From the NCBI RefSeq assembly GCF_032917945.1, contig NZ_CP136624.1, positions 3,410,001 through 3,474,000 of the forward strand: a DNA stretch of 64,000 nucleotides. Reading direction: 5' to 3'. The position numbers were made by a program, and so were the translations under genes. Each line of letters starts with the position of its first letter. Positions within the stretch are counted from its first letter, which is position 1. This DNA is from Bradyrhizobium sp. sBnM-33. Its GTDB lineage: Bacteria; Pseudomonadota; Alphaproteobacteria; Rhizobiales; Xanthobacteraceae. This document shows positions 4,105-53,804 of this stretch, piece by piece. The notes beneath the pieces are model-generated. The model was not told the origin of the DNA and searched no databases. It saw only the letters and a list, made by a program, of their open reading frames with translations.

Positions 4105-4123
4105 CACCTCACAAATTAGAACG
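4105..4123 (+). promoter_or_regulatory. First copy of a 19-bp direct repeat upstream of the receptor, with Irr-box-like site
   Basis: CACCTCACAAATTAGAACG recurs at 4243-4261 with 17 of 19 bases identical, and its inner 13-mer TCACAAATTAGAA recurs exactly at 47901-47913 before the exporter gene. Extended to 4115-4131, the site reads ATTAGAA-CGC-TTAAAAA. This matches 11 of 14 positions of the Bradyrhizobium Irr control element as I remember it (TTTAGAA-n3-TTCTAAA). It is a candidate iron-responsive operator for the TonB-dependent receptor. Confidence 0.45.
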
Positions 4124-4242
4124 CTTAAAAACTTCATACGGTTTAGAGCGATTCGAAAAGCGCGCGGTGTTGCCTCATCGCCACTAACGCAATCCGTTAT
4201 GTGCACGCTTCATTACCTTAGATGGCTTCTACTCGCCGTTTC

Positions 4243-4261
4243 CACCTCAGAAGTTAGAACG
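4243..4261 (+). promoter_or_regulatory. Second copy of the 19-bp direct repeat upstream of the receptor
   Basis: CACCTCAGAAGTTAGAACG differs from the copy at 4105-4123 at two positions and ends 34 bp before the receptor start codon. Only the left half resembles the Irr element (GTTAGAA); the right half does not. The pair suggests cooperative regulator binding, but it could also be a small local duplication. Confidence 0.4.
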
Positions 4262-4295
4262 AGCCGGGACCTGCTTGTGGGCTTTGGGTGGAAGT

Positions 4296-6614
4296 ATGAC
4301 GTATCAAGTCGCTGCCAGAAATGTTGCGCGCGCTGTTTCGCTGGGAGCGGTGAGCTATCTTGCGCTCTCTCTGGATTTTGCCGGCGGCTCGAGCGCATTC
4401 GCGCAGAATTTGCCGCCCGTCACCGTCGATGCTCCAAGCCAGCAACGAGCGCGCCCCGCAGCAGCACGGAGAACGCAAACGTCGACGTCGCGCGTGCAAC
4501 GGCGCGTCGCTGCGCCGGCGCCGCGTCGCGTCGAACCGGTTCCGTATGTGGTGCCTTCGAGGGGCACCGTTGGTACAGTGCCGCCTGCATATGCTGGCGG
4601 ACAGGTGGCGACGGGCGGGAGTCTCGGACTTCTCGGCAATCGCGGCGTGATGGATACCCCGTTCAACCAAACCAGCTACACGGCGGAGTTGATCGCGAAT
4701 CAACAGGCCCGAACCATCCGCGACGTTCTGATGAATGATCCCTCCGTGCGGGTCATCCAGGCCGCCGGCGGCGGCGCCGACAGTCTGTTCGTTCGCGGCT
4801 TCTATTACGACAGCGGCGACTATGGGCTAAACGGTCTGTACGGGATCGCGCCGTACTATTCCATCGGGGCGAACTTCATCGAGCGCGTCGAAGTATTGAA
4901 GGGCCCGAGCGCCGTGCTTAACGGCATGACCACTGGCGGCACCGGTGTTGCAAGTGGCGGTGCCGTCGGCGGCAGCATCAACCTCATCACCAAGCATGCT
5001 CCCGACATCGACATTACACGGTTGACGAGCACGTACGTTTCCAAATCGCAGTTTGGCGGCAATATCGACGTCAGCCGGCGCTACGGCGAGCACAAGGAAT
5101 GGGGCGTTCGGGTTAACAGCACCTATTCGAACGGCAATACACCGTGGGACCGTCAGACCGATGAGTTCGGCAACGTCGTCCTCGGCCTCGACTACCGGGG
5201 CGAGAACGCGCGCATGGCAGTCGATGTCGGTTATCAAGCCGACAATTTGACTCCTCCGCTACGCTTCTTTGGAATTGGCCCAGGTCTCACCTCCATCCCT
5301 GCGCCGCCGAAAGCCGGAACTAATTTCCAGGTGCCGTGGGCCTACTATAAGCCGAAGGACTTCTTCACCACCGTAAAAGGTGAAGTGGACGTGACTGACT
5401 GGATGACCGCGTATGCCTCGTTTGGTTATCATGACAGCAAGATCGACTACACTTATCCTTCACCCAACATTACCAGCGCTACCGGAGCTCTGGTGGGGCG
5501 TCCGGGGCTTGGGCATGAGACGTTCGAGACCTTTGCGGGAGAAGCGGGCGTGCGCGCGTCGATCGACACCGGCCCGATAAATCATGCTCTGAACATGAAC
5601 TATTCGATCAATGACCGAACCTATGATCAGAGTGTCCTGAGTTCGGCAGGGCTAATTGCCTGGAACCTCTATACTCCGCCGACGAATGTCCCCCGTCCGA
5701 ACTTGAATGTCCCAACTCTAAGACAAAATACCAACGTAAATCTCCAAAGCATCGGCTTTTCCGATACCATGTCGATGCTAAATAATCGCATTCAGTTGAC
5801 GGTCGGTGTTCGTCGTCAGACGGCCGGAAGCGAGGTGACGAATATCCTTGCGCCCAGTTTAAGCCATCCTTTTCAGGATGAAACCGTGTGGACCCCGGCT
5901 TACGCCCTTGTCGTCAAGCCGGTCGAGAACATTTCGCTATACGCAAATTATATCGAAGGACTCCAGACGCCGCATGTCGTGGGTCCGGGGTTTTCCAATC
6001 CCGGGACTGTATTCCCGCCGGGGCAGACCCAGCAGGCTGAAGCGGGCGTGAAGATCGATACGGGCCGTCTGACGACGACCATGAGCGTGTTCGATATCGA
6101 ACAGCCGAGCATCATCACGGTGGCGACGGGGATCCCTCCGTCCCAGCAGCTTAACGGAAGGCAGCGCAATCGGGGCGTCGAACTCAATGTGTTCGGCGAA
6201 GTCACGCCTGCGATTCGGTTGCTCGGCGGTGTCGCGTTGATCGATGGCAAACAGATCAAGACGCCCAATGGTGCCACTGACGGCCGGACGGCGGTAGGCG
6301 TTCCGGCAATCACCGCCAATATCGGAGCGGAGTGGGATACGCCGTTCATGCGTGACCTGACGCTCTCGGCGAGGGTCATTTATACCAGTTCGCAATATGT
6401 CAATATTACCAACACGCTCTCGCTGCCGGAGTGGACGCGGGTCGACATCGGAGCGCGATACACCTTCACCTCGCCCTGGAACGGAAAGCCGATCGTGGTC
6501 CGCGCCAACATCGAGAACGTCTTCAACGAAGCCTATTGGGCCTCGGCCTACAGCGGCGTGATCACGCTTGCTGCCCCGCGCACCTATCTCTTGTCGACGA
6601 CGTTCAACTTCTGA
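4296..6614 (+). CDS. TonB-dependent siderophore receptor (outer membrane)
   Basis: A 772-residue FhuA/FpvA-class outer-membrane receptor for a ferric siderophore. It has a signal peptide ending near SSAFAQ, then LPPVTVDAP, which resembles a TonB box. A Pro/Ala/Arg-rich linker of about 70 residues precedes a plug domain (TAELIANQQARTIRDVLMNDPSV) and a 22-strand-type barrel ending in the typical C-terminal phenylalanine (TTFNF). I chose ATG 4296 because it has GGTGGA just upstream and gives a clean signal sequence; an upstream TTG (4275) would add seven residues. No N-terminal signalling (STN) domain is present, so it is not expected to control a FecI-type sigma factor. It is the likely uptake receptor for the siderophore made by the following genes. 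Confidence 0.93.
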   Translation: MTYQVAARNVARAVSLGAVSYLALSLDFAGGSSAFAQNLPPVTVDAPSQQRARPAAARRTQTSTSRVQRRVAAPAPRRVEPVPYVVPSRGTVGTVPPAYAGGQVATGGSLGLLGNRGVMDTPFNQTSYTAELIANQQARTIRDVLMNDPSVRVIQAAGGGADSLFVRGFYYDSGDYGLNGLYGIAPYYSIGANFIERVEVLKGPSAVLNGMTTGGTGVASGGAVGGSINLITKHAPDIDITRLTSTYVSKSQFGGNIDVSRRYGEHKEWGVRVNSTYSNGNTPWDRQTDEFGNVVLGLDYRGENARMAVDVGYQADNLTPPLRFFGIGPGLTSIPAPPKAGTNFQVPWAYYKPKDFFTTVKGEVDVTDWMTAYASFGYHDSKIDYTYPSPNITSATGALVGRPGLGHETFETFAGEAGVRASIDTGPINHALNMNYSINDRTYDQSVLSSAGLIAWNLYTPPTNVPRPNLNVPTLRQNTNVNLQSIGFSDTMSMLNNRIQLTVGVRRQTAGSEVTNILAPSLSHPFQDETVWTPAYALVVKPVENISLYANYIEGLQTPHVVGPGFSNPGTVFPPGQTQQAEAGVKIDTGRLTTTMSVFDIEQPSIITVATGIPPSQQLNGRQRNRGVELNVFGEVTPAIRLLGGVALIDGKQIKTPNGATDGRTAVGVPAITANIGAEWDTPFMRDLTLSARVIYTSSQYVNITNTLSLPEWTRVDIGARYTFTSPWNGKPIVVRANIENVFNEAYWASAYSGVITLAAPRTYLLSTTFNF

Positions 6615-6646
6615 ACGCTGCGCCGTTCTCATCATCTGAAACACCT

Positions 6647-6681
6647 GCCGCCGCGGATCTCATCCGCGGCGGCATTTCTTT
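6647..6681 (+). terminator. Rho-independent terminator after the receptor gene
   Basis: A perfect 12-bp stem (GCCGCCGCGGAT at 6647-6658, complement at 6662-6673) with a 3-base loop is followed by ATTTCTTTG. It begins 33 bp after the receptor stop codon, so the receptor is probably transcribed separately from the NRPS operon. Confidence 0.85.
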
Positions 6682-6996
6682 GATCTGATGGTGTCGCAAA
6701 ACTGACTGATCGAAACTGATGACAACGCGATGAAAAATCATCGGACGTTGAACGTGCGATTCGAAAACCGAAAAAGGTTCCCGCCTGGCGAGCTAGAATT
6801 GAAAGAAAGTGCGTATGGCTTTGCCAATCCGTCACTTGTCATGCACACCGGCTCGCAAGCGCGGAGGTTGCATCGTGTCACGCGATCGCCAACTTGGAGC
6901 TATTAAAAACTTCGTCGTCGATATTGCTTTGACCCTCATTTGCTTCTGACCTAGTCAAAACGCCATTGCTTTCGTTTTCTCAGAAGGGACCGAACC
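6682..6996 (+). promoter_or_regulatory. Promoter region of the mbtH-NRPS operon
   Basis: No gene is present. A perfect short dyad CGATGA-AAAA-TCATCG lies at 6728-6743. The 11-mer TTAAAAACTTC at 6903-6913 also occurs at 4125-4135 in the receptor promoter region. A possible -35-like TTGACC lies near 6931. I see no good Irr-box-like site here, unlike the other promoters of the locus. Confidence 0.4.
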
Positions 6997-7224
6997 ATGA
7001 TGGTGTTCGACAGAGACGACGTCACCTTCACCGTCGTTATCAATCACGAAGAGCAATACTCCATCTGGCCGACGTTCAAGGAAATTCCGGGCGGCTGGAA
7101 AGCGGTGGGCAAGACGGGCAGCAAGAAGGAATGTCTTGAACACATCGAACAGGTGTGGACCGACATGCGCCCGCTCAGCTTGCGCAAATTCATGGACGAG
7201 ACAGCGCCGCAGCAGTCGGCTTAA
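6997..7224 (+). CDS. MbtH-family NRPS accessory protein
   Basis: A 75-residue MbtH-like protein, normal in size. Family hallmarks are [10 protein letters not shown] near residues 19-28, PGGWKAVG, and the C-terminal segment [18 protein letters not shown]. MbtH proteins bind NRPS adenylation domains and are often required for their solubility or activity. The start ATG is preceded by AGAAGGGA. It is the first gene of the NRPS operon, 22 bp before the thioesterase, and presumably serves one or more of the eight adenylation domains downstream. Confidence 0.95.
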
Positions 7225-7246
7225 GCCAACGGAGCCTTGTCTTCCG

Positions 7247-8002
7247 ATGCGGCTTCTTTGTCTGCCTTACTCCGGCGGCAGCGCCATGTTCTATGCGCGG
7301 TGGCGCAAGCTCCTGCCGTCATGGATCGATGTCCGGCCGGTAGAATGGCCGGGGCGCGGCGCGCGCATGGACGAGCCGCTGGCGACCGACCCGCACGCGC
7401 TTGCATGGCAGCTCGCTGCAGAACTTCACGCCCAGCTTGATGTGCCCTATGCGCTGTTTGGACATAGCCTCGGCGCACTGATTGCGTTCGAACTCGCGCA
7501 TTTCCTGCGTGATCGTGGCGCGCCTGCTCCGGCTATTCTCTTTGCCTCGGGCGCCGATGCGCCGGCCGTTCGAGACGGTAGCAAATGGCGTCTGCCATTG
7601 AGCGACGAGGCGTTGCTGAAGGAGCTCCGCGATCTGCAGGGCACGCCGGATGAGGCGCTGTCGAATGCGGAGCTGATGCGGTCGGCATTGCCGGTGCTCC
7701 GCGCCGATTTTTTGATGTGCGGCGCCTATGTCTATCGACGGCGGCATCCGTTGTCGTGTCCCGTGCACGTCTTCGGCGGCGCCGACGACGAGACCAGCCG
7801 CGAATCGCTACAAGCCTGGCGGCAGGAAACGTCCGTGGAATTCACGCTCGACGTGCTGCCGGGCCATCACTTCTTCATTCACACGCAGCAAGCCGAACTG
7901 CTCGGCCTGATCGGATCGGCCCTGGCCCGACGGTCGGGACGATCGATTGGTTCGCATCGGAGCGAGGATCATGAGCGCATTCTCCGTCCAGCCACTCATT
8001 GA
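7247..8002 (+). CDS. Type II (editing) thioesterase
   Basis: A 251-residue GrsT-type alpha/beta hydrolase that clears mis-primed or stalled acyl groups from carrier proteins. It opens with the family signature LCLPYSGGSAMFY. It has the nucleophile in GHSLG (S74), an acidic segment GGADDE, and the catalytic histidine in GHHFF (H207/H208). I chose ATG 7247 because the conserved N-terminus begins there; longer forms would overlap mbtH. The stop lies 32 bp inside the next gene, which indicates translational coupling. It is distinct from the chain-releasing thioesterase fused to the last NRPS. Confidence 0.92.
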   Translation: MRLLCLPYSGGSAMFYARWRKLLPSWIDVRPVEWPGRGARMDEPLATDPHALAWQLAAELHAQLDVPYALFGHSLGALIAFELAHFLRDRGAPAPAILFASGADAPAVRDGSKWRLPLSDEALLKELRDLQGTPDEALSNAELMRSALPVLRADFLMCGAYVYRRRHPLSCPVHVFGGADDETSRESLQAWRQETSVEFTLDVLPGHHFFIHTQQAELLGLIGSALARRSGRSIGSHRSEDHERILRPATH

Positions 8003-8939
8003 AGGCAAGACTCTTCCGCTGTTGCTGAGGGCTGACAAGGCCGGGCAGCCGCTCGGCGCGGTGCTTCCCGTGCTGCGCGATACCATCGACCGGCATTTGA
8101 CTGATTGCGGGGGCATCGTGTTTCGCGACTTCTCGCTCGACGGTCCTGATGCCTTCCGGGCGTTCGCGGCCGACTTCGGTCATCCGCTGCTCACCTACGA
8201 GTTTGGATCGACGCCACGCTCGCAGGTTACCTCCGGCGTCTACACGTCCACGGAATACCCGCCGCACCAGCATATCCCGCTGCACAACGAGCAGGCCTAT
8301 ACGCGCGATTGGCCGATGAAGATCTGGTTCTACTGCATGCAGCCGGCGCAGGAGGGTGGCGAAACGCCGATCGCCGACAGCCGCGCCATCTATCGCGACA
8401 TGCCGCCGGACATTCGGGAGCGCTTCGCCGAGAAGGGCGTGATGTATGTGCGGAACTACGGCAACGGGCTCGACGTCGACTGGCAGCAGGTGTTCGGCAC
8501 GGAGTCCAAGGCGGAGGTCGAGGTCTACTGCGCCGGGCACGACATCGAATGCGAATGGAAGGAAGACGGCGAGCTTCGCACGCGCCAGATCTGTCAGGGG
8601 ACGGCGCGGCATCCGGTAACGGGAGAGTGGGTCTGGTTCAATCAGGCCCATTTGTTTCACGTCTCCAACCTCGAGCCGGAAGTGCGCGAGAGTCTGCTCG
8701 ACGTGGTCGGCGACGAGACTGAACTGCCGCGTAACGTCTTCTACGGCGACGGTTCGCCGATCGATGACGAGACGCTCGCCACCGTCCGCAATGTTCTCGA
8801 AACGCACAAGATCAGCTTTCCCTGGCAGGCCGGCGATGTCGTGATGCTTGACAATATGCTCACCGCGCATGCGCGCGCGCCGTTCAAGGGGCCCCGCAAG
8901 GTGATCGTTGCCATGGCGGAAGCGCATCGGCAGGGCTGA
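7971..8939 (+). CDS. SyrP/TauD-like Fe(II)/2-oxoglutarate dioxygenase, predicted aspartyl beta-hydroxylase
   Basis: A 322-residue TauD-superfamily non-heme iron oxygenase. The metal triad appears as H105-N-E107 in LHNEQAY and H300 in TAHARAPF, with an arginine-rich stretch after it for 2-oxoglutarate. The HxE form rather than HxD, and the motif HNEQAY, are characteristic of SyrP-type enzymes, which hydroxylate carrier-bound aspartate (or histidine) during NRPS synthesis. The first adenylation domain downstream has an aspartate pocket, so the expected product is beta-hydroxyaspartate, an iron-binding hydroxycarboxylate. The start ATG has GAGGAT upstream and lies inside the thioesterase gene. 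Function is inferred from family and context. Confidence 0.85.
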   Translation: MSAFSVQPLIEGKTLPLLLRADKAGQPLGAVLPVLRDTIDRHLTDCGGIVFRDFSLDGPDAFRAFAADFGHPLLTYEFGSTPRSQVTSGVYTSTEYPPHQHIPLHNEQAYTRDWPMKIWFYCMQPAQEGGETPIADSRAIYRDMPPDIRERFAEKGVMYVRNYGNGLDVDWQQVFGTESKAEVEVYCAGHDIECEWKEDGELRTRQICQGTARHPVTGEWVWFNQAHLFHVSNLEPEVRESLLDVVGDETELPRNVFYGDGSPIDDETLATVRNVLETHKISFPWQAGDVVMLDNMLTAHARAPFKGPRKVIVAMAEAHRQG

Positions 8940-8993
8940 TCGGCATTTTCGGGCGGCGGGAATAGTCGTCGCGCGCGGACTGGATTCGAACAG

Positions 8994-11900
8994 ATGTACA
9001 GAGACAACCTCGTCGAACGACTAAGGTGCCATGCCGCGTTACGCCCGGACGGGATCGCGTTGCGCTTCCTGGAGGGAGACAGCGTCGCCGAAGAGTTGAC
9101 GTTTGCCGGTCTCGACGCCCGGATTCGATCCGTCGCAGCCCGGCTGCAGCAGTTGGGCGGCGCGGGCGAGCGCGCGATTATCCTTCTGCCCAGCGGCCTC
9201 GACTATGCCGTGGCATTCTATGCCTGCCTGTATTCGGGCGTGATCGCCGTCCCGGCCTATCCGCCGGAAGGAGGCGCCGAGCGCTATGCAGGGCGTCTCA
9301 ACGGCATTCTGCGTGACGCGACGCCTCGCTTCGTACTGACCGAAACCACGCTGCTTGGTGCGGTGAAAGCGGCACTTCCCGAGCTGCCAAACGTAGAGAT
9401 CATCGCAGTAGATGCGATACCGGCGGAGTTTGCAGCGGAGTGGCGTGAGACGAGGCCGGAGGCAGATGCGGTTGCCTTCTTGCAGTACACATCGGGATCG
9501 ACCTCGCAGCCGAAAGGCGTCTGCGTCTCGCACGCTAACCTGACGGCCAATGAGAAGGCCATCGAGGCGGTGGCCCGAGGGGCGCTCGACGACGTCTTCG
9601 TGAGTTGGCTGCCGCTTTATCACGACATGGGACTGATCGGCGGGTTGTTGAATCCGCTGTTTACCGGCTTTACCGCCGTCCTGATGTCGCCACGGAATTT
9701 TCTCGAGCGGCCGCGACGCTGGCTTGAGGCCATCGATCGTCACGGCGGCACGATGAGTGGTGGACCTGATTTCGCCTTCGCGCTGTGTGCCGACCGCATT
9801 TCCGACGAAACGATCGACCGGCTCGACCTCAGCCGCTGGAAGTTCGCATTCTCCGGCTCGGAGTTTGTGCGCGAGACCACGCTGCGCAGGTTCGGGGAGC
9901 GGTTCGAGCGGGCGGGGTTCAATCGATGCGCGTTGACCGCCTGTTACGGTCTGGCCGAGGCGACGCTGCTGGTGACGGCCGGTGAGCTCACCACCGAGAC
10001 GGTCAGCCATACGCTCGATACGGCAGCGCTTGCGGCAGGGCGCGTCGCAACCGCCGACCAAGGCACTGATCTGGTGGCGTGCGGCCGGACGGTCGCCGAT
10101 CACGTCACGCGCATCATGCGCATTGATGGATCGGCTGCAGCACCGGCTGACGAAGTCGGCGAGATCTGGGTCGCCGGCCCCAGTGTCGCGCGACGATACT
10201 GGAATAATCCTGAGGCCACGCAAAAAGCCTTCGTCGAGCGTGACGGCGCGCGCTGGCTGCGTACCGGAGATCTCGGTTTCATTCAGGATGGTACGCTGAT
10301 CGTGACGGGCCGGCTCAAGGACCTGCTGATCGTTCGCGGGCAGAACGTATATCCGACTGACGTCGAGCAGGCGGTCGAGGCCGAGGTCGAATCCGTCCGC
10401 AGCGGACGGGTTGCCGCGTTTGCGGTCGAGATCGATGGACGGGAAAGCATCGGCGTCGCGGCAGAGTTCAGCCGCACCGTTCTCAAGCGCAGCGATCCCG
10501 AAGTTCTCGCCCACGCGATCGGCGAGGCCGTGCTTCGGCAGGTGCAGGAATATCCGGCCGTGATCGTCCTGCTGAATCCGCAAGCGATGCCGCTGACGAC
10601 GAGCGGAAAACTGCAGCGCTCCGCCTGCGCCGCCGGCTGGGCCAACAACACGCTCGACAGCTTTATGGTCTTTGAGCGAGGACGACGCCGCGACGGCGCG
10701 CTACTGACGGCGCCCGCGACCGACACCGATCGCGCGCTGGCACCGATCTGGTGCGAGGCGCTTGGCGTCCAGGCGGTGCATCGCGAGGATGATTTCTTCG
10801 TGCTGGGCGGAAACTCGATCACGGCCGGACAGATCGCCGCCGCTGTCCGTGAACGCTTCGGCGTCGAGTTGGAACTGCGCAGCTTTTTCGACGCGCCGAA
10901 GCTTGCAGCATTCGCGGATCATATCGAGGCCCTGCTGCGCGACGGCGTGAAGAGGGCACTTCCTCCGATCCAGCGGGCCGCGCTGGCCGACCGCGCCACC
11001 TTGTCCCATGCTCAGGAGCGGCTGTGGTTTCTCTGGAATCTGGACCCCGGCGGCACCGCCTATACGGTCGCGAGCACGATCCGGCTCAAGGGCAAGCTCG
11101 ACCATACGGCCTTGTCGCAGGCGATTGCGGAAATCGTTCAGCGTCATGAGGTGCTGCGCACAACGTTCGTCGCAACAGATGGTCGGGCAAGGCAGATTAT
11201 TCACAATGCCCTAAGCGTCGATATCAGGCACGAGGATCTCCGGGGGCGTTCCAAGGAGCATGCGGCGGAGGTCAGACGGTCCGAACTCGGCAAGCCGTTC
11301 GACCTTGTCAATGGGCCGCTATTGCGGGCGGTGCTGCTTCAGGTCGCAGATGATGCGCACGAACTGCTGCTGCTTGCCCACCACATCGTTGTCGATGGAT
11401 GGTCGCTCGATGTGATGCTCGAAGAGCTGGCGGGACTCTACCGCAACGGCATCGGGCACGACGCAGGCCGGCCGCCGGTGCCGATGATGCAGTATGCGGA
11501 CTTCGCCGTCTGGCAGCGAAACTGGCTCGCAGGTGGCGAGAGAGATCGGCAACTCGCCTATTGGCGCGCAAAGCTGGGTGATGCGCACCCGGTGCTGGCG
11601 CTGCAACATGACCGGCCGCGTCTGGCAACGCAAAGTCATGCCGGCGATACGATCGGCCTTGCCATCGACGGCGCGCTGGCCGCTCGATTGCGGGAGATCG
11701 CCGCAAAATATCGCGTGAGCGTTTTCATGTTGCTGCTCGGGGCATATCAGGCGCTGTTGTATCGCTATACGGGGCAGAGCGATTTGCGCATCGGCGTGCC
11801 GGTAGCGGGACGCCGTCACGCGCAGCTCGAGCGGCTGATTGGCTGCTTCGTCAACACGCTGGTGCTGCGTGCCGAGATTGCCGATGAAGCGACTTTCCCG

Positions 11901-18734: not shown

Positions 18735-18736
18735 AT

Positions 18737-41744: not shown

Positions 41745-41752
41745 ACATCTAC

Positions 41753-45777: not shown

Positions 45778-46602
45778 TCACCGTGCGAAGCTGATGAGAT
45801 GGCTGTGATCCGGAGACGGCATCACCCCCATCGGAATGCCGTAGATGGTTTCGAGTTCGGCCGGCGTCATGATCTTGTCCGGCGCGCCGCGCGAAATCAG
45901 TTTGCCCGAATGCAGGGCGATGATCTCGTTGCAGAAGCGCGCCGCCATGTTGACGTCATGGAGCACGACGACCACGCCGAGATTGCGCTCCCGCGCGAGC
46001 CGCTTCACCAGCGACAGAACTTCGATCTGATGGGCAATGTCGAGCGCCGACGTCGGCTCATCGAGCAACAGGCATTCGGCATCCTGCGCAACCAGCATGG
46101 CGATCCAAACCCGCTGGCGCTCGCCGCCTGACAATGTATCGACCAACCGGTCCGCAAACGGCTCGATGTGGGTCAGCGCCATGGCTTCCGCCACCTTATC
46201 GCGGTCAGTGTCGCCAAACCGGCCGAGCGCGCCATGCCAGGGATAGCGCCCCAGCGCGACCAGTTCCTTCACCAGCATGCCGGCGGCGGGCGGCGTCTGC
46301 TGCGGCAAATAGGCGACCTTGCGGGCGTAGTCCCGGTCGCTCCATTCGCGCAACGCGCGCCCTTCGAACCGGATCGTGCCGGATGAGCTTGGCTGTTGCC
46401 GCGCCAGCAATTTCAGCAAGGTCGATTTGCCGGAGCCATTGTGCCCGATCAGGCCGACGACGCTGCGCGCGGGAAGCGACAGGGTGAGCGGTTCGAGCAG
46501 CGCGCGCCCCGCCACAGCAAACCGCACCTGGTCCAGCTCGAACAAGGGCGCGGTCGCATCGAGCGAGGCTCGCGCGATGTCGGTTGGCCGAACTACGTGC
46601 AT
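45778..46602 (-). CDS. fhuC: Ferric-siderophore ABC ATPase, FhuC-like
   Basis: A 274-residue ABC ATPase of the iron-chelate class. Walker A is GHNGSGKST, the Q-loop is YLPQQ, the signature is LSGGERQR, Walker B is LLLDEPTSALD, and the switch histidine is in VVLHD. It should energise the FhuB permease encoded convergently on the other strand. I chose the ATG at 46602, giving an N-terminus just ahead of the ATPase domain; longer frames upstream lack family similarity. It lies 70 bp downstream of the siderophore-interacting protein gene on the same strand, so both are probably co-transcribed from the divergent promoter near 47.8 kb. Confidence 0.94.
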   Translation of the reverse strand: MHVVRPTDIARASLDATAPLFELDQVRFAVAGRALLEPLTLSLPARSVVGLIGHNGSGKSTLLKLLARQQPSSSGTIRFEGRALREWSDRDYARKVAYLPQQTPPAAGMLVKELVALGRYPWHGALGRFGDTDRDKVAEAMALTHIEPFADRLVDTLSGGERQRVWIAMLVAQDAECLLLDEPTSALDIAHQIEVLSLVKRLARERNLGVVVVLHDVNMAARFCNEIIALHSGKLISRGAPDKIMTPAELETIYGIPMGVMPSPDHSHLISFAR

Positions 46603-46672: not shown

Positions 46673-47740
46673 TCATGGCTGCCGCAGGCTCCAATACGCG
46701 ACCGCAAGATGTTGCTCGCGGGAGAGCTTCCGCTCGTCGCGCAGATGGTTTCGCAGCGCCTTCAGCGCCTGCGCTTCGCACGCGACCCATGCAAAGACCT
46801 CGCGATGTTCAGGCCATCGCACGGCCTTGACGGCATCGACCAATAGCTGCGTCGTGCCGGCCGGACGGTCGCCGCGATGCAGCCAGCGGATCGATACGCC
46901 GGCTGGCGCTATCAGCGGAACCTGCTCAAGCCGGTCGGCGACTTCGATGAAGACTTCACCGGTTGCCGTCGCCGGCAGTGTCTCAAGAATTCGCGCAATT
47001 GCGGGAAGGGCGGTCTCGTCGCCCGCCAGCAGCAACCAGCGCGCCGGACGAATGCTTCGTCCGAGCGGACCGGCCATGCCGCAAATGGCTCCGGCCTTCG
47101 CGTTGAGGGCAAACGCCGAGCCCGGTCCGGCATGATCGTGGACCACGAAATCGATGTCGATCTCGCGGGCCCGCAGATCGATGCGGCGGATCGTGTAGTA
47201 GCGGGTGATAGGCCTGCGGTCCGGCTCCGGCCAGAGGATTCGCCCGTCGGGGGCGGGCCACGGCCATTCGGGCTTGGCAAGGCCTTCCGGCGGAAAATAC
47301 AGACGGACGTGCAGATCATCGTCGTTCACAAAGCGGGCGATGTCGTCGCCGGTGAATGTCAGCCGGCGCATGCGGGGCGTCAGGTCGATCGCTGCCTTCA
47401 GCCGCACCTCGCGGAAATTGGCCAGCGTGCCGCCGTTCGATTCATGGCCGGACCAGACGATGGTCGGCGACTCATCGCCGGCAAACTCAATGACGTGGGA
47501 AGCGACAACCGATCGCAGCATTTCAAGGTTGCCCTTGTCGTTGGCCTCGACGCGGATCTTGAGCGCCTCGGCCTCGACGGCGAGCGAACTGGTTCCAAAC
47601 GGCAGTTTCGCCACCATCAGGCCGCCCCGGTCCTCGAAGGCGATATCATGCTCGGCAAGATGATCGATCATTCGGGCCGCAAGGCCGGCGGCATCAGCAA
47701 TCGGAATGCGGGTTTCGGAAACAAGCGAGTCCAAAGTCAT
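46673..47740 (-). CDS. DUF2218 domain fused to siderophore-interacting protein (ferric-siderophore reductase)
   Basis: A 355-residue two-domain cytoplasmic protein. Residues about 5-90 match DUF2218. Residues about 105-355 are a ViuB/YqjH-type siderophore-interacting flavoprotein with the FAD-binding motif RYYTIR (180-185), a Gly-rich GMAGPLGRS segment and the C-terminal LAVAYWSLR. Such proteins reduce ferric siderophore with NAD(P)H so that iron is released inside the cell. I chose ATG 47740, which has GGAG 5 bp upstream. It is the first gene of a minus-strand pair with fhuC and diverges from the exporter gene. The function of the DUF2218 part is unknown to me. Confidence 0.9.
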   Translation of the reverse strand: MTLDSLVSETRIPIADAAGLAARMIDHLAEHDIAFEDRGGLMVAKLPFGTSSLAVEAEALKIRVEANDKGNLEMLRSVVASHVIEFAGDESPTIVWSGHESNGGTLANFREVRLKAAIDLTPRMRRLTFTGDDIARFVNDDDLHVRLYFPPEGLAKPEWPWPAPDGRILWPEPDRRPITRYYTIRRIDLRAREIDIDFVVHDHAGPGSAFALNAKAGAICGMAGPLGRSIRPARWLLLAGDETALPAIARILETLPATATGEVFIEVADRLEQVPLIAPAGVSIRWLHRGDRPAGTTQLLVDAVKAVRWPEHREVFAWVACEAQALKALRNHLRDERKLSREQHLAVAYWSLRQP

Positions 47741-47900: not shown

Positions 47901-47923
47901 TCACAAATTAGAATCAATCGAAA
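47901..47923 (+). promoter_or_regulatory. Irr-box-like site between the reductase and exporter genes
   Basis: The 13-mer TCACAAATTAGAA (47901-47913) is identical to that at 4109-4121 before the receptor. Bases 47907-47923 read ATTAGAA-TCA-ATCGAAA, matching 11 of 14 positions of the remembered Irr element. It sits in the 309-bp gap between divergent genes starting at 47740 and 48050, and could control both. No gene is seen in this gap. Confidence 0.45.
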
Positions 47924-48049: not shown

Positions 48050-49753
48050 ATGATGAATCCACGAAGCGGCCTGACGGCGCAGATCCTGCATCTCCTGCGG
48101 TCCTACTGGCCGATCGTGCTAGGCGGCACCGTTCTCGGCGTTGTCGGCGGCGCCAGCGTTGCGGGGCTGCTCGCGGTCGTCAATCGCGGCCTCTACGCGT
48201 CGCAAGACGACGTCGCCACGCTGCTGTTCGCGTTTGCGGGGCTGTGTCTCCTAATCCTGATCGGCTCGATCGGCGCCGATATCAGCGCCAACTATGTTGG
48301 ACAACGGATTATCGCCGAGCTGCGCAAGTCGCTCGCCGCCAAGATCCTGGCGGCTCCGATCGATCAACTCGAAATCTACCGGACGCATCGGCTGATTCCG
48401 GTCCTCACCCACGACGTCGATACCATCAGCGATTTCGCGTTCTTCTTCTCCTCCTTCTTCGTGTCCGTCGTCATCACGCTCGGCTGCATGGTCTATCTGG
48501 CGGTGCTGTCGTGGCCGCTTTTTCTGATTACGGGGCTGGTCATCGTCCTAGGCTCGCTGGCGCACGCCTATGCGCGAACGCGAGGCGTTCAGGGCTTCAA
48601 TATCGCCCGCGATTCCGAAGACCAACTGCAGAAGCACTACCGCGCGATCGCCGAGGGCGCGAAGGAGCTGCGCCTGAACCGCGCCCGCCGTCAGCGCGTC
48701 TATGTCGACCAGCTTCAGCGCACCGTCGACCATATCAGCGCGGTGCAGATCAAATCGATCAATCTCTTCGTGACGGCGCGCGCGCTCGGCACGATGTTGT
48801 TCTTCGTCGTGATCGGCGTCGCGCTGACTTTGCGTCCGTTCCTCTGGCCCGACAGCCCGGCTGCGGTGTCCAGCGGCTTCGTCCTGGTGCTGCTCTATAT
48901 GCGGGGGCCTATCGATCAGGTGATCGGGATCCTGCCGGCATTGGGCCGCGCGCAGGTGGCGATGAAGCGGATCGCCGAGCTTTCGGAGCAGTTCGCGACG
49001 CCCGAGCAGGACTTGCTGTCCGCGTCATCGACCGCGCCGGATGGATCGGGCAGAATCGAATCGATCGAGCTCCGTGGCGTCTCGTACGGCTTTCGCGCGG
49101 TGCCCGGCAGCAACCCCTTCGTGCTCGGACCGATTGACCTGCATGTCCGGCAGGGAGACATCGTTTTCATTGTCGGTGAAAATGGAAGCGGAAAAACCAC
49201 GCTGATCAAGTTGCTGCTGGGTCTCTACGCGCCGCAGAGAGGTACGCTGCTTCGGGACGGTATACCCGTCGTGACGGAAACGCGGGATGATTACCGGCAG
49301 CTCTTCACGACCATCTTTTCCGACTACTACCTGTTTGAAGATCTTCTGCAGGGAGCGGGAATGGTGCCTGACGTCGCGGAGCGCTATCTCGAGCGATTGG
49401 AGGTCGCGCATAAGGTCTCGGTGGAGAACGGCGTATTTACTACGACGGACCTGTCGACCGGTCAACGCAAGCGGCTGGCGCTGATGAATGCCTGGCTCGA
49501 GGAGAGGCCGGTCCTTGTGTTCGACGAGTGGGCCGCGGATCAGGACCCTGCCTTCCGGCATATCTTTTACACGGAACTGCTGCCTGATCTGAAACGCATG
49601 GGAAAGACGATCATCGTGATCTCACACGATGACCGCTATTTCGGCGTGGCAGATCATCTGGTGCGACTGCGCAACGGCAAGATTGTCGCGGGCGATGCGA
49701 GAACCCATGACATCATCAAATCGTCATCGGTTCCAACCGACGCCTCTCTTTAG
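48050..49753 (+). CDS. Cyclic-peptide/siderophore exporter, PvdE/SyrD-type ABC transporter
   Basis: A 567-residue half-size ABC exporter with an N-terminal six-helix membrane domain (about residues 15-300) fused to an ATPase. Walker A is GENGSGKTT (about 376), the signature is the variant LSTGQRKR, and Walker B is VLVFDEWAADQDP. The variant signature and the DEWAADQDP segment are typical of the PvdE/SyrD/YojI family, which exports pyoverdine precursors and lipopeptides. It is the obvious candidate for moving the acylated peptide across the inner membrane. Two ATGs in tandem (48050 and 48053) are possible starts. No outer-membrane or periplasmic maturation partner is encoded beside it. Confidence 0.93.
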   Translation: MMNPRSGLTAQILHLLRSYWPIVLGGTVLGVVGGASVAGLLAVVNRGLYASQDDVATLLFAFAGLCLLILIGSIGADISANYVGQRIIAELRKSLAAKILAAPIDQLEIYRTHRLIPVLTHDVDTISDFAFFFSSFFVSVVITLGCMVYLAVLSWPLFLITGLVIVLGSLAHAYARTRGVQGFNIARDSEDQLQKHYRAIAEGAKELRLNRARRQRVYVDQLQRTVDHISAVQIKSINLFVTARALGTMLFFVVIGVALTLRPFLWPDSPAAVSSGFVLVLLYMRGPIDQVIGILPALGRAQVAMKRIAELSEQFATPEQDLLSASSTAPDGSGRIESIELRGVSYGFRAVPGSNPFVLGPIDLHVRQGDIVFIVGENGSGKTTLIKLLLGLYAPQRGTLLRDGIPVVTETRDDYRQLFTTIFSDYYLFEDLLQGAGMVPDVAERYLERLEVAHKVSVENGVFTTTDLSTGQRKRLALMNAWLEERPVLVFDEWAADQDPAFRHIFYTELLPDLKRMGKTIIVISHDDRYFGVADHLVRLRNGKIVAGDARTHDIIKSSSVPTDASL

Positions 49754-49856
49754 AGCGATTTTAGTCTTCGGAAAAACTTGAATCGAAGTTCAGACTCTTT
49801 CGAGATGCACATCGTCGAAAGCGTGTGATCGCCTTTGGCGACGCCGTCTTGTCAGA

Positions 49857-49873
49857 TTTGTAAGAAATCTAAA
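49857..49873 (-). promoter_or_regulatory. Irr-box-like site upstream of the acyltransferase-monooxygenase pair
   Basis: Read on the minus strand this is TTTAGAT-TTC-TTACAAA, 11 of 14 matches to the remembered Irr element. It also forms part of the dyad AGATTT-n5-AAATCT (49854-49870). It lies 111 bp before the acyltransferase start, in a 230-bp gap that holds no gene. This is the weakest of the four candidate sites by core match. Confidence 0.35.
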
Positions 49874-49983
49874 CTGCGTGTGCCTGCATTTCTTGTCATC
49901 CTGTACGCGAGTGCTTTACATCGCAAGCGCGAGTGAAGATCGCGTGTTGTTTCAAGCAACCACGTTTGCGATGCGAGGGCCGG

Positions 49984-51045
49984 ATGAACAAAGCTTCGAG
50001 CTCCGCGATAGGGCCTCGCGCATTCCCGATCGGGCCGGACTTTTCCATGACCGTCGTTCAAGACGGCGGGGGAGATATCCGCATTGCGGTGGGCATCACG
50101 ACGGTGATGCGCCTGCGTCTCGATGACGGGCTCGATCATCTGAAAATATTGACCACTCCTGACGATCCGCAACTGGCGGTCTCGGCGATTTCGGCGGCGG
50201 CTGAAGCCATGTTTGGATGGCGGCCGAGTCTTGACCGGCTTGTGGTGGATTCAGCCAGCGCAGAGCTTGCGCGCGAGTTGATGAGCCACGGTCTCGCTCT
50301 CATGGCGGGGGCAGACCTAGTGCTGCTTCCCGAACTAATCATGCAGCGGCGGGACAATTGGCTGGTCAATGCCGAACGGCCGCCATTGCCGCAACTCCAC
50401 GTCATGACGGACGGCAAGCGCCATCCGCGACGCTCGCCAAAGCCGGTGGGAAAGGTCTATGCCCGCTTCATACCATGGCTCGCCGAAGTGATCTCCTTTC
50501 GCGTCGCGAACGTGGACGGCGACCTGCATCTGCTGCACCGCTGGATGAACGATCCCCGCGTCGACGCGTTCTGGAACGAAGCGGGCGATCTCGAAAAGCA
50601 TCGGCGCTATCTCTCCGGCATTCTGGCGGACCCGCACATGCTGCCGCTCATCGGCTGCTTCGACGACGAGCCGTTTGGCTACTTCGAGCTCTACTGGGCC
50701 AAGGAGAATCGTCTCGCGCCGTTCTATGATGCCGACGATTACGATCGCGGCTGGCATGTCGTCGTCGGCGAGGACGCCTATCGCGGGCGCCGCTATATCA
50801 GCGCCTGGCTGCCGTCACTGATGCACTACATGTTCCTTGACGATTGTCGAACGCAACGAATCGTCGGCGAGCCGGCGGCGGCGCATGCGCAGCAGCTCCG
50901 CAATCTGGAAGTCTCGGGATTCGCAAAGATCAAAAACTTCGATTTTCCGCACAAGCGGGCCACGCTCGTGATGCTGTTGCGCGAACGCTTCTTTGGTGAC
51001 CGGCTGTGGCTGCCGGCAGCGACCAGCCCTGCGACCACGTCCTAA
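49984..51045 (+). CDS. Siderophore hydroxyornithine N-acyltransferase (IucB/RhbD/VbsA-like GNAT)
   Basis: A 353-residue GNAT protein of the siderophore acetyltransferase class. The conserved half (about residues 180-335) has HRWMNDPRVDAFWNEAGD, FGYFELYWAKE and AYRGRRYISAWLPSLMHYMF, followed by an acetyl-CoA-binding segment. Relatives transfer acetyl, 3-hydroxybutyryl or other acyl groups to N-hydroxylated lysine or ornithine, forming hydroxamates. The monooxygenase gene starts 21 bp after this one, so the pair should make N5-acyl-N5-hydroxyornithine. I chose ATG 49984, preceded by GAGGG; an earlier ATG at 49933 has no family support. The acyl group cannot be read from the sequence. Confidence 0.9.
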   Translation: MNKASSSAIGPRAFPIGPDFSMTVVQDGGGDIRIAVGITTVMRLRLDDGLDHLKILTTPDDPQLAVSAISAAAEAMFGWRPSLDRLVVDSASAELARELMSHGLALMAGADLVLLPELIMQRRDNWLVNAERPPLPQLHVMTDGKRHPRRSPKPVGKVYARFIPWLAEVISFRVANVDGDLHLLHRWMNDPRVDAFWNEAGDLEKHRRYLSGILADPHMLPLIGCFDDEPFGYFELYWAKENRLAPFYDADDYDRGWHVVVGEDAYRGRRYISAWLPSLMHYMFLDDCRTQRIVGEPAAAHAQQLRNLEVSGFAKIKNFDFPHKRATLVMLLRERFFGDRLWLPAATSPATTS

Positions 51046-51066
51046 CGCCCGAACGGAGCGCAGCTT

Positions 51067-52365
51067 ATGTCTCACCAGTTTGCGATCGAGCACGACGTCA
51101 TCGGGGTCGGATTCGGGCCGTCCAATCTTGCGCTCGCGATCGCATTGGATGAATGCGCCAGAAGATCACGTCTGAAATGCGCCGCTCTGTTCGTGGAGAA
51201 GCAGCCGCAATTCACCTGGCACGGCGGCATGCTGCTTCCAGGCAGCGACATGCAGATCTCGTTTCTCAAGGACCTCGTTTCATTGCGTGATCCGACCAGT
51301 CCGTTCACCTTCGTGAACTATCTCCACAAGCGCGGCCGTTTGCAGGATTTCATCAACTGCCGAACGTTCTATCCGAGCCGGATTGAATTCAACGACTATC
51401 TGCGGTGGGTCGCGGCCCAGTTCAAGTCTCAGGCGGTCTACGGCGAAACCATCATCGTTATCGAGCCGGTGACTGTCGGCCAGTCGGTGACGTCCTTGCG
51501 CGTTCATTCACGGACGCTCGCCGGCGGGGAGACGGTTCGGCTTGCAAGGAACCTGGTGGTCGCGGTCGGAGGGCGACCGTTTATCCCGCAAGTATTTGCG
51601 AAGATCGCCGATGATCCCAGATTGTTGCACTCCAGCCGCTATCTCGACAGGGTCGAGGACATCGACCTCGGTGGAAAGGCCGCGCGCGTGGCCGTGGTCG
51701 GGGGAGGGCAGAGCGCGACCGAGGTGACGGTGGACCTTCGCGGGCGATTTCCGGACGCGAGCATTGATCTGATCTTTCGCGGCCATGCCTTGAAGCCGTC
51801 CGACAGCAGCCCGTTCGTCAACGAGATTTTCAATCCGGATTACACCGACTTCATCTATGCGCAGCCCGCCGAGCGGCGAGACGCTATCGTTCGCAACTTC
51901 CGGAACACGAACTATGCGGTGGTCGATTCTGATCTCCTCGACCAGTTGTATCGATTGCTCTACCAGCAGCGCGTCAGCGGCACGACGGGGATCGCGTTGC
52001 ACCCGCGCAGCGAGATAACGAGTATAGATGCCAGACCGGAAGGCATCGAGATTGGCACGATTGACAAGTTCGGCGGTGCAAAGCGCCGATCGGCCTATGA
52101 TGCCGTCATTCTGGCAACGGGCTACGACAGGGAGACGCCGCACGCGTTTCTGGAGCCGATCCAGCGTTATATTCGCGATGCCGTGCTGGACCGTAACTAC
52201 AAGCTCGTCACCAGCCCGGCATTTCGGCCGCAAATCCATCTCCAGGGATACTCCGAGGCGTCTCACGGCCTGAGTGATACGTTGCTGTCCGTTCTTGCAA
52301 CGCGCTCGCAGGAAATCGCGGAATCGCTGCTTTCGACGATTTCGCGCCGCGAGCTCATCGCGTAA
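51067..52365 (+). CDS. L-ornithine/L-lysine N-monooxygenase (PvdA/IucD family)
   Basis: A 432-residue flavin- and NADPH-dependent N-hydroxylating monooxygenase, the standard length. The FAD motif is GVGFGPSNLAL near residues 14-24. The NADPH motif is VVGGGQSATEV near 210, and the late family motif LATGYDRETPH is present. It hydroxylates the side-chain amine of free ornithine (or lysine), the first step to a hydroxamate. The active-site neighbourhood WHGGMLLPGSDMQISFLKDL resembles ornithine-specific PvdA enzymes, so ornithine is favoured. It follows the acyltransferase and converges on the phosphopantetheinyl transferase with a 4-bp gap. Confidence 0.93.
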   Translation: MSHQFAIEHDVIGVGFGPSNLALAIALDECARRSRLKCAALFVEKQPQFTWHGGMLLPGSDMQISFLKDLVSLRDPTSPFTFVNYLHKRGRLQDFINCRTFYPSRIEFNDYLRWVAAQFKSQAVYGETIIVIEPVTVGQSVTSLRVHSRTLAGGETVRLARNLVVAVGGRPFIPQVFAKIADDPRLLHSSRYLDRVEDIDLGGKAARVAVVGGGQSATEVTVDLRGRFPDASIDLIFRGHALKPSDSSPFVNEIFNPDYTDFIYAQPAERRDAIVRNFRNTNYAVVDSDLLDQLYRLLYQQRVSGTTGIALHPRSEITSIDARPEGIEIGTIDKFGGAKRRSAYDAVILATGYDRETPHAFLEPIQRYIRDAVLDRNYKLVTSPAFRPQIHLQGYSEASHGLSDTLLSVLATRSQEIAESLLSTISRRELIA

Positions 52366-52369
52366 GCCA

Positions 52370-53242
52370 TCAGATAGCGGGGGCAATGAGTCGCCACTGT
52401 GCGGCGGATCCAAGCGCGGGCGGCACCGAAAGCACGGCGGGTGACGGGCCTGCGTCGACGATCACGGTGCTCGGAGCTATCGTGAATCCGAGTGCGGCCG
52501 CCTTCAGCAGGGCTTCCTTGAGGGTCCAATAGCGAAGAAAGAGCCGGGACCGAAGTGCCGCGGGAGCGTTCCGTAGAACCTCCCGCTCTTCTGCCGCCAG
52601 GACGATTTCGCCGATCGAATCCATATCGGCAATTTCCCGCAGCGGTTCGATATCGACGCCGATAGGCATGCGGGCGGCTGCAACGGCCACAGTGCCCCTC
52701 GCGTGGCTCAGGCTGAAGTCGATCTCCACTGGACCAGCAACGAGCATGGGCTTGCCATGCGCCGATGGTTGAAACCGCAGGGCTTCAGCCGATTGACCGA
52801 CAAGCCCGCCAAGCATGAGGCGAATCCCCGTATGCGCAGCCAGATAGCTCATTCGATCTTCGATGTGCAGGAATCGCACCATGCGATCGGTCTCACCGGC
52901 ATCGAGCAGTTTCGCAGCTCGCTCGACGCTGAGCATGCCGGGTTCGCCGGCAGCGACCTCCGGCGATGGAGGTATCGCTGCCAGCCAGAGAAGGATCTCT
53001 TCCGGTTCCAAATGTCCGACCGACCTCGCGATATCAGCATCCAGCAGCCATCGCACCCGCAAATGATCCTGCGGAGCCGCACATCTCACGGCGATCGACC
53101 ACGCGAGGGAGGCGCTTGCACGCGTCATTGAAAGCGATGCAGCAAATGGTCGTTGTCCAGCCTTCAGGAAGTCCGTCATGTCCACGGGCTTATCGACCAA
53201 TGCGCAACCGTCTGCAACCCCCGGGTGTACAGAGGCACGCAT
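52370..53242 (-). CDS. 4'-phosphopantetheinyl transferase, Sfp type
   Basis: A 290-residue enzyme that attaches phosphopantetheine to carrier-domain serines, as needed by the nine carrier domains of the three synthetases. Family motifs are FSLSHARG (176-183), IGVDIEP (194-200) and RYWTLKEALLKA (237-248), with the acidic and KEA residues that bind magnesium and CoA. The conserved region starts near residue 105. The first 100 residues are longer than usual for the family, and later starts (for example 53179) are possible. It is transcribed toward the monooxygenase gene from a promoter region shared with the small gene at 53358. Confidence 0.9.
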   Translation of the reverse strand: MRASVHPGVADGCALVDKPVDMTDFLKAGQRPFAASLSMTRASASLAWSIAVRCAAPQDHLRVRWLLDADIARSVGHLEPEEILLWLAAIPPSPEVAAGEPGMLSVERAAKLLDAGETDRMVRFLHIEDRMSYLAAHTGIRLMLGGLVGQSAEALRFQPSAHGKPMLVAGPVEIDFSLSHARGTVAVAAARMPIGVDIEPLREIADMDSIGEIVLAAEEREVLRNAPAALRSRLFLRYWTLKEALLKAAALGFTIAPSTVIVDAGPSPAVLSVPPALGSAAQWRLIAPAI

Positions 53243-53255
53243 CGAGATGATCTGC

Positions 53256-53272
53256 CTTAGAATCCATCTAAC
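53256..53272 (+). promoter_or_regulatory. Irr-box-like site before the phosphopantetheinyl transferase gene
   Basis: CTTAGAA-TCC-ATCTAAC matches 11 of 12 core positions (TTAGAA-n3-TTCTAA) of the remembered Irr element, the best match in the window. It ends 14 bp before the start codon of the minus-strand transferase gene and lies in the gap divergent to the gene at 53358. Its position near the start would suit repression. Confidence 0.5.
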
Positions 53273-53306
53273 TGAGACAAGCCGAGATCATGTGCGCTTG
53301 CGATGC

Positions 53307-53323
53307 TGATAGATTCATTCTCA
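53307..53323 (+). promoter_or_regulatory. Possible second iron-regulator site (TGA-n11-TCA dyad)
   Basis: TGATAGATTCATTCTCA has the TGA...TCA ends and AT-rich centre seen in Fur- and RirA-type boxes, but the interior symmetry is poor. It lies 35 bp before ATG 53358. This is a weak call and may be chance. Confidence 0.25.
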
Positions 53324-53357
53324 ATCGCATCTGCAGATATTCAACGTGGAACTGGTC

Positions 53358-53804
53358 ATGATAAAATCCGTCCCTCTCGAGCAGCATATCGATAGCTATC
53401 TGCCGGAGCGAATTGCAACCATACTGGTTCGCAGTCACCACGCGGGGCTCGTCAGCAAGGAGCCATCCACGCGCATCAACTATCTCCTCGAGATTGCGTC
53501 GCTCCATACCAGGGGCGAACTCCTCGGGCAGCCGGGCCTGGGACGCCTGCGTTTGCAACGGATCGAGAAGTGGATGGAATTTCATGGCCGCCGCCTTCGG
53601 CGCAACGAAGAGAGTCTGGATAGTGTGATCTGCCGGTTTGGTTTTCGGCAAGCTCTGCTTGAGAAAAAGGCCAGCCGCTCCGCGCCCAGATCGGTCATCT
53701 CGTCCGAGGACAAAGACAAGATCTTGCGCGAGTTCGGTTCATACGCCGAGCGTGAAGATATCCGGCGGGTGGAACGGCGGATCGCGATCAGCCATAACAC
53801 CTGA
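53358..53804 (+). CDS. Hypothetical protein, possibly part of the siderophore regulon
   Basis: A 148-residue, strongly basic soluble protein that I do not recognise. It has no signal peptide or membrane helix. The middle (about 45-100) is rich in leucine and arginine and probably helical (GLGRLRLQRIEKWMEFHGRR), and the C-terminal third is charged (SSEDKDKILREFGSYAERED). I chose ATG 53358, with GGA 8 bp upstream; a GTG at 53346 would add four residues. It is divergent from the phosphopantetheinyl transferase gene and shares its putative iron-regulated promoter. A regulatory or DNA-binding role is conceivable from charge alone but is unsupported. Confidence 0.6.
   Translation: MIKSVPLEQHIDSYLPERIATILVRSHHAGLVSKEPSTRINYLLEIASLHTRGELLGQPGLGRLRLQRIEKWMEFHGRRLRRNEESLDSVICRFGFRQALLEKKASRSAPRSVISSEDKDKILREFGSYAEREDIRRVERRIAISHNT

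Follow-up and report, generated by a model that had tools for sequence, protein, structure and literature searches.

Does Bradyrhizobium sp. sBnM-33 carry a complete pathway for a siderophore of its own, and if so, for which kind? We examined a stretch of 64,000 nucleotides of its genome (G000; a single contig of 9.18 Mb, C1, positions 3410001 to 3474000; hereafter the window), in which a reading of the letters and open reading frames without database searches (the sequence-only reading) had placed a self-contained siderophore locus. The cassette in question spans positions 4299 to 53804 of the window, from a gene for a TonB-dependent receptor to a small open reading frame at 53358 to 53804. 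With a probability of about 0.82, we take it to make, export and re-import an acylated octapeptide siderophore, acyl-D-OHAsp-X-D-aromatic-Gly-D-(acyl)OHOrn-D-Z-Gly-OHOrn, where OHAsp is beta-hydroxyaspartate, OHOrn is N5-hydroxyornithine, and X and Z stand for the residues of modules 2 and 6. Genes were called from Pfam, NCBIfam and motif matches, with several start codons chosen among in-frame starts. Genes lie on the forward strand unless stated otherwise.

Assembly line and predicted peptide

Three nonribosomal peptide synthetase (NRPS) genes together encode a fatty acyl-AMP ligase (FAAL) followed by a carrier (T) domain, eight adenylation (A), eight condensation (C) and three epimerization (E) domains, and one C-terminal thioesterase (TE). 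The FAAL start, the number of A and E domains and the terminal TE of the sequence-only reading were thus all recovered by Pfam, NCBIfam and motif calls. Based on domain calls and A-domain codes, NRPS1 (8994 to 18734) has the order FAAL-T-C1-A1(Asp)-T-E1-C2-A2(X)-T, NRPS2 (18731 to 25312) the order C3-A3(aromatic)-T-C4(dual C/E)-A4(Gly)-T, and NRPS3 (25305 to 41744) the order C5-A5(OHOrn)-T-E5-C6-A6(Z)-T-E6-C7-A7(Gly)-T-C8-A8(OHOrn)-T-TE. Pfam condensation stretches number three in NRPS1, two in NRPS2, and four and three in the two parts of NRPS3, which were cut inside E6, giving 11 domains in total. Residues 6 to 552 of NRPS1 match the fatty-acid--AMP ligase model PRK05850 with 543.3 bits, a whole-protein score that does not reach the model cut-off of 775.

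The nine-residue codes, read at presumed GrsA positions, are DLTKIGHIG (A1), DIEFIGAIA (A2), DAWTVAGVC (A3), DILQLGLVW (A4 and A7), DGEGSGGVT (A5 and A8) and DVWHFGRIN (A6). In order, they would read as Asp, X, a Phe-like aromatic residue, Gly, an OHOrn-like residue, Z, Gly and again an OHOrn-like residue, in agreement with the module order predicted earlier. Modules 1 and 2 of Pseudomonas (Ectopseudomonas) khazarica TBZ2 (locus L053) are coded DGEACGGVT and then DLTKVGHVG, and the bokeelamides of strain EM133 begin with a fatty acyl group, acetylated OHOrn (AcOHOrn) and OHAsp (PMC11574851). Since A5 and A8 resemble the first and A1 the second of these codes, and given this residue order, we assign A1 to Asp and A5 and A8 to OHOrn, with the caveat that the coded strain and the bokeelamide producer are different strains of the species. 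The code of Z is Ser-like but has three altered pocket residues, G301, R322 and N331.

The tailoring genes go together with these assignments. A TauD-family, SyrP-like Asp beta-hydroxylase (7971 to 8939; Pfam PF02668, E 1e-50) with an HxE iron motif at residues 105 to 107 accompanies the Asp-type A1, while an L-ornithine N5-monooxygenase of the Lys/Orn monooxygenase family (51067 to 52365; PF13434, E 1.1e-114; best PDB match L-ornithine 5-monooxygenase 3s5w, E 6e-132) and a SidF-like N5-hydroxyornithine acyltransferase of the GNAT type (about 49981 to 51045, start inferred; PF13523, E 5.3e-56; best PDB match SidF 7qf6, E 3.8e-51) accompany the OHOrn-type A domains. Gene and domain calls and codes thus support the proposed class, that of acylated peptide siderophores carrying OHAsp together with two hydroxamates. 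The TauD protein is 68% identical to its homologue in P. khazarica L053; among the best 80 of 259 related stretches, it is up to 97% identical to those of other Bradyrhizobium loci, 68 to 69% to those of Pandoraea and 63% to that of Pseudomonas lactucae (L062).

In the proposed pathway, the FAAL would adenylate a fatty acid and load it onto the first carrier, and the eight modules would add their residues in turn. The TauD enzyme would hydroxylate Asp, and the monooxygenase and the SidF-like acyltransferase would produce the hydroxamates. Release by the TE would probably leave the C-terminal OHOrn in cyclised form, and iron would be bound at residues 1, 5 and 8.

Export and uptake genes complete the cassette. 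A cyclic-peptide-type, PvdE-like ABC exporter (48050 to 49753; TIGR01194, 682.6 bits, cut-off 286.2, E 3.8e-205) would secrete the product, and the ferric form would return through the TonB-dependent siderophore receptor (4299 to 6614; PF00593 and PF07715; TIGR01783, 306.6 bits, cut-off 223.5) and a FhuDBC system. The latter consists of a FhuD-like periplasmic binding protein (42815 to 43750; PF01497), a FhuB-like fused permease (about 43737 to 45743, start inferred; two stretches of PF01032) and, on the reverse strand, a FhuC-like ATPase (about 45778 to 46602, start inferred; NF007863 FhuC, 399.8 bits, just under the cut-off of 433). Iron would be freed by a siderophore-interacting protein (SIP), an FAD reductase with a DUF2218 part, also on the reverse strand (about 46673 to 47740, start inferred; PF04954, PF08021 and PF09981). 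Every tailoring, export and uptake gene that had been listed, as well as the reductase, is therefore present in one self-contained set.

A lipopeptide primed by a FAAL and built with a dual C/E domain also resembles Pseudomonas lipopeptides (PMC3039948), which could point to a compound made mainly for surface activity or antibiosis and not for iron uptake. The enzymes for OHAsp and hydroxamates stand, however, in one cassette with a TonB receptor, FhuDBC and a SIP reductase, and Irr-box-like sites are found in its intergenic spans, so that we regard such a function as highly improbable.

Stereochemistry

D residues would be set by the E domains of modules 1, 5 and 6 and by C4 acting on residue 3. 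The three E domains had been recognised earlier, but the count of D residues based on them was incomplete: dual condensation/epimerization domains have an elongated His motif, HHI/LXXXXGD (PMC3039948), and C4 holds such a motif, HHLLSKQGD, at its N terminus (22187 to 22213), which makes a D configuration probable for residue 3 as well. The exact motif was found in 21 of 26 records searched, at C4 each time, with the variants HHMLATEGD in genomes G111 and G272 and HHLLAADDD in G248 at the same domain. It is absent from a Methylopila record and from G760, a cluster of a neighbouring genus with an X-type A domain and no aromatic residue in module 3, where module 3 has an E domain instead. Two different mechanisms thus seem to maintain the D configuration at residue 3.

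In a tree of 52 C and E domains from five clusters, for which the tool warned of long branches, C2, C6, C7 and C8 form one clade apart from C1, C3 and C5, a grouping that agrees with the positions of the E domains except for C8. The module-7 carrier has the GGDSI form. Together with the clade of C8, this suggests that module 7 once carried a D residue, as is the case in the loihichelins described below.

Comparison with known siderophores

For the loihichelins, we take the order in which the residues are printed to be the linear order. Loihichelins A to F of Halomonas sp. LOB-5 are acylated octapeptides, listed with cyclic OHOrn, D-Ser, dehydroaminobutyric acid (Dhb), AcOHOrn, Ser, Gln, D-Ser and D-OHAsp (PMC6836290). 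They share with the predicted peptide the eight residues and the placement of the ligands, with D-threo-OHAsp next to the acyl group, AcOHOrn at position 5 and cyclic OHOrn at position 8; for the window cluster, these positions follow from codes and tailoring genes. In addition, D-Ser at residue 7 fits the D-accepting C8. Residues 2, 3, 4, 6 and 7 differ, being D-Ser, Gln, Ser, Dhb and D-Ser in the loihichelins and X, aromatic, Gly, Z and Gly here, in a comparison at the level of the products. The sequence-only reading had considered the octapeptide length unfamiliar, which does not hold in view of the loihichelins, whose eight acylated residues include ligands at 1, 5 and 8 (PMC6836290).

Other acylated siderophores share parts of this plan. 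The bokeelamides of E. khazarica EM133 have in common with it the FAAL start, a TauD hydroxylase, an Orn monooxygenase, an N-acyltransferase, and OHAsp with two OHOrn, but have five residues, with OHOrn ahead of OHAsp and Ser spacers (PMC11574851). The pandorabactins of Pandoraea likewise come from a FAAL-started NRPS with OHAsp and OHOrn, accompanied by an MbtH-like protein, a type II TE, a phosphopantetheinyl transferase (PPTase) and an acetyltransferase; they differ in having six modules in another order, with OHAsp at positions 2 and 6 (PMC12144892). The lactuchelins of P. lactucae are also acylated and contain OHAsp and OHOrn (PMC12904278), and the potashchelins of Halomonas sp. MG34 are acylated with OHAsp first and cyclic OHOrn last, but have nine residues with two OHAsp and one OHOrn (PMC7100376).

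Our searches of open-licence papers gave no description of an acylated octapeptide siderophore of Bradyrhizobium, nor the predicted residue order in print; in PMC12971057, the sole rhizobial mention met by a term search was within its references. Length and ligand spacing are hence already known, while the residue order was not found described. The earlier suggestion that such a rhizobial siderophore could be new stands for the residue order, but the cluster itself is spread through Bradyrhizobium and occurs in relatives.

Distribution and the malleobactin question

A search of genome contigs with the TauD protein gave 259 related stretches, of which the best 80 were kept; these came from Bradyrhizobium, Nitrobacter, Methylobacterium, Inquilinus, Pandoraea, Pseudomonas and others. 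Within Bradyrhizobium, the acyltransferase marker was found at E <= 1e-60 in 44 of 265 genomes. In two of these, G080 and G222, no such NRPS was found; with these removed, 42 likely clusters are left. With a threshold of E <= 1e-130, the monooxygenase was found in 11 of the 149 family genomes and in 11 of the 397 genomes from the order, the window and congeners included in both counts. We read 24 clusters by code, namely the window, 22 other Bradyrhizobium clusters (G015 and G201 are one genome) and G760. All eight codes were clean in 21 of the 24, the window included; the other three are G262 (A3 broken), G167 (A3 unread) and G168 (module 1 outside the stretch). A further cluster, that of G287, was read in part. 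With all eight codes recurring in 21 genomes and three more nearly complete, the arrangement is not due to chance.

Malleobactin NRPSs are short and lack a FAAL start, whereas the window has eight modules and begins with a FAAL. This bears on a different interpretation of such genes, an incomplete cluster of the malleobactin or ornibactin type that would yield no siderophore or a malleobactin-like one. It derives from a 2025 study of 278 Bradyrhizobium genomes, 85 of which were reported to have mbaAB homologues and 41 mbaABCH, the latter number being near our 42 likely clusters in 265, with the formyltransferase gene mbaE absent from all of them and the mba genes read as incomplete malleobactin (PMC12815270). 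In the window cassette, however, an N-acyltransferase stands where the formyltransferase would, and no formyltransferase, hence no MbaE counterpart, was found among the scanned open reading frames. Export, uptake and reductase genes are all present and the gene set is conserved. Furthermore, B. yuanmingense CCBAU25021, the sole strain with detectable siderophore among the six Bradyrhizobium strains tested in that study, carries mbaABCH (PMC12815270). We therefore consider an incomplete malleobactin cluster very unlikely.

Rather, mbaABCH of PMC12815270 is probably the predicted acylated octapeptide cluster described here, which would explain its count of 41 of 278, as this is close to 42 of 265 and the B. 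yuanmingense type strain CCBAU 10071 (L013, G287) carries a cluster of the window type. This makes the cluster a candidate for the siderophore of CCBAU25021, in which a putative dimethylcoprogen cluster is also mentioned (PMC12815270). Bradyrhizobium has been described as poor in siderophore biosynthesis (PMC12815270), a view that a complete and conserved octapeptide pathway in about one sixth of the sampled species would change. Such a pathway would also bear on iron competition in the rhizosphere.

Two further observations concern uptake. The receptor is far more variable than the enzymes, being 51 to 98% identical in the 22 relatives where it was found, versus 76 to 97% for TauD in 23. The clusters of the BTAi1 type (G112, G111, G052, G272, G248 and G257), which have Gly at position 2, show neither FhuDBC nor SIP genes within the part that was read.

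Constant predicted ligand positions and variable spacers

Comparison of the 24 clusters showed that the modules assigned to ligands do not vary. Position 1 is Asp-type (DLTK[IV]GH[IV]G) in all 23 clusters with module 1 inside the stretch. All 24 clusters have OHOrn-type codes at positions 5 and 8 (with DGEGSGGIT as A8 in G262), and all 24 have Z at position 6. Apart from G760, which has X at position 3, 21 of 23 clusters carry an aromatic code there, the A3 of the remaining two being broken or unread. At position 2, 17 clusters carry X, 6 carry Gly (G052, which is BTAi1, G111, G112, G248, G257 and G272) and one, G760, carries Z. Constant positions 1, 5 and 8 together with a variable position 2 are the pattern expected for ligands versus spacers.

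This pattern also concerns the nature of X. In the A-domain tree, the nearest A domains to A2 are of the OHOrn type: the A2-type domains are sister to the clade of A5, A8 and the khazarica OHOrn domains (support 99) and have Glu at code position 239. X might therefore be a further ornithine-type residue, giving an acylated siderophore with four possible ligand residues. The tree tool, however, warned of long branches here as well, and X is replaced by Gly in six clusters and by Z in one, in which the X-type domain is then at position 3, so that X is not needed for binding. We consider a fourth ligand unlikely, leave the residue as X, and retain the octapeptide with ligands at 1, 5 and 8.

Regulation

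The pattern TTAGAANNNTTCTAA, which we take to be the core of the Irr box or iron control element (ICE), was used to search the window. At up to 3 mismatches to this presumed consensus, it has 9 sites compared with 3.85 expected (standard deviation [SD] 1.84), a number equalled by 1 of 100 shuffles. At up to 2 mismatches, there are 5 sites with 1 or 2 mismatches each, all within six chosen intergenic spans of the cassette (1,586 bp), and none of 195 shuffled palindromes gave as many in those spans. Three Irr-box-like sites lie upstream of the receptor gene (4116 to 4130, 4143 to 4157 and 4218 to 4232), and one between the reductase and exporter genes (47908 to 47922). The fifth (53257 to 53271), a pattern match with 1 mismatch, lies in the gap that separates the PPTase gene from the small open reading frame. 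Similar sites recur in relatives, including those upstream of the receptor. The site between reductase and exporter genes was found at the same place in 15 of 15 clusters examined, where only the placement is independent evidence as the search pattern fixes most motif letters. Irr boxes and ICE motifs are described in rhizobia (PMC3413700), and Irr-type regulation of the cassette is likely.

The small open reading frame (53358 to 53804) encodes a conserved protein of 148 amino acids without a curated family. It is present in 41 of the 42 likely cluster genomes and in 11 of 223 other genomes, and seven of eight copies outside the cluster are near TonB receptor genes (L184 to L191). Its predicted fold is suggestive of a helix-hairpin-helix domain like the C-terminal domain of the RNA polymerase alpha subunit (alpha-CTD), and we see in the protein a candidate for a so far unrecognised regulator acting on siderophore receptors.

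Several points weigh against the octapeptide siderophore as proposed. To our knowledge, no known code matches that of Z. The TauD protein has no NCBIfam match above its cut-off. The exact Irr core AGAANNNTTCT does not occur in the window, and the Irr-like sites are present only with mismatches to the presumed consensus. C8 falls into the D-accepting clade although module 7, for Gly, is without an E domain. Dual C/E motifs are sometimes inactive, as in orfamide (PMC3039948), and the OHAsp of the bokeelamides is L-erythro despite an E domain in the OHAsp module (PMC11574851), which makes D at residue 1 unsafe. Siderophore was detected in only one of six tested Bradyrhizobium strains (PMC12815270). 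Finally, gene content, domain order, codes, motifs and conservation were read from the DNA, whereas substrates, stereochemistry, acyl groups, cyclisation, iron binding and regulation are predictions.

Exchange and apparent duplication of modules

The variation at position 2 arises through A-domain exchange, as judged from the cluster of G112. There, the module-2 A core matches the genome's own module 4 with 0.75 to 0.92 identity between about +4 and +264 residues relative to motif A3, versus 0.31 to 0.54 to module 2 of the window as far as +174. The C domain flanking it, by contrast, resembles window module 2, mostly at 0.5 to 0.7. The A core of G112 module 2 was hence exchanged. In G760, A2 and A6 are sisters (support 97). 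The relatives thus form a natural set of A-domain exchanges, at positions 2 and 3 of one assembly line and with clear tract edges, that would be useful for engineering NRPSs in soil bacteria that are harmless.

The two Gly A-T units, judged by their sequences, evolve in concert. Within genomes, A4 and A7 have a DNA identity of 0.851 to 1.000 (19 genomes), compared with 0.679 to 0.729 (21 genomes) for A5 and A8, which share an identical code. The A-domain tree places A4 as sister to A7 from its own genome in 14 of 19 genomes, the exceptions being the window, G051, G132, G168 and G259. In the window, the likeness covers the A and T domains and ends in the C domain.

Two kinds of apparent rearrangement involve these units. 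In G168 (joined loci L109 to L111), a block of A5, A6 and the Gly module is duplicated in tandem over 14,036 bp with 99.2% identity and 64 gap positions, giving the code order Gly-OHOrn-Z-Gly-OHOrn-Z-Gly-OHOrn; the block is bounded by Gly modules and one copy has frame breaks. A 10-kb insertion was ruled out, the sequence being a tandem duplication, and since the many small gaps allow an assembly or sequencing fault, we do not claim a working line of 11 modules. In the draft genome G287, A3 and A4 are followed by A8, with modules 5 to 7 missing, and hit spacing pointed to a similar join in the draft of G280 (G287 and G280, L166 to L168). We do not take this as evidence of a pentapeptide, as in both genomes another contig carries an A6 domain (82% and 80%) next to an A5-like one, and consider a real deletion variant less likely. 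The join of modules 4 and 8 is probably an assembly fault at the near-identical Gly modules.

Taken further, these data would describe a family with a fixed ligand frame (1, 5 and 8) and spacers exchanged by copying or swapping of A cores within the cluster. The Gly A-T units of modules 4 and 7 would be kept near-identical by gene conversion and serve as the crossover point for gain of a three-module block (G168, 11 modules); the small alpha-CTD-like protein would be tied to TonB receptors as regulator, and X and Z would possibly be residues new to siderophores. We put this wider picture forward tentatively, at less than even odds.

Further features of the locus

The MbtH-like, type II TE and hydrolase genes, the small open reading frame and the C4 motif had not been listed by the sequence-only reading. 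Downstream of the receptor gene lie those for the MbtH-like protein (6997 to 7224; PF03621, E 2.3e-25) and a stand-alone (type II) TE (7247 to 8002, start inferred; PF00975, E 2.6e-46), and a PPTase gene is found on the reverse strand at 52370 to 53242 (PF01648, E 3.1e-14). No tRNA was found in the window, the GC content of which is 0.57 to 0.68 in 2-kb steps. Directly after NRPS3 follows a gene for an alpha/beta hydrolase of the LipP1/HSL type (41741 to 42766; PF07859, E 7.1e-73), which is kept in 24 of 24 relatives compared and might act in trimming of the acyl tail or in hydrolysis of the ferric siderophore.

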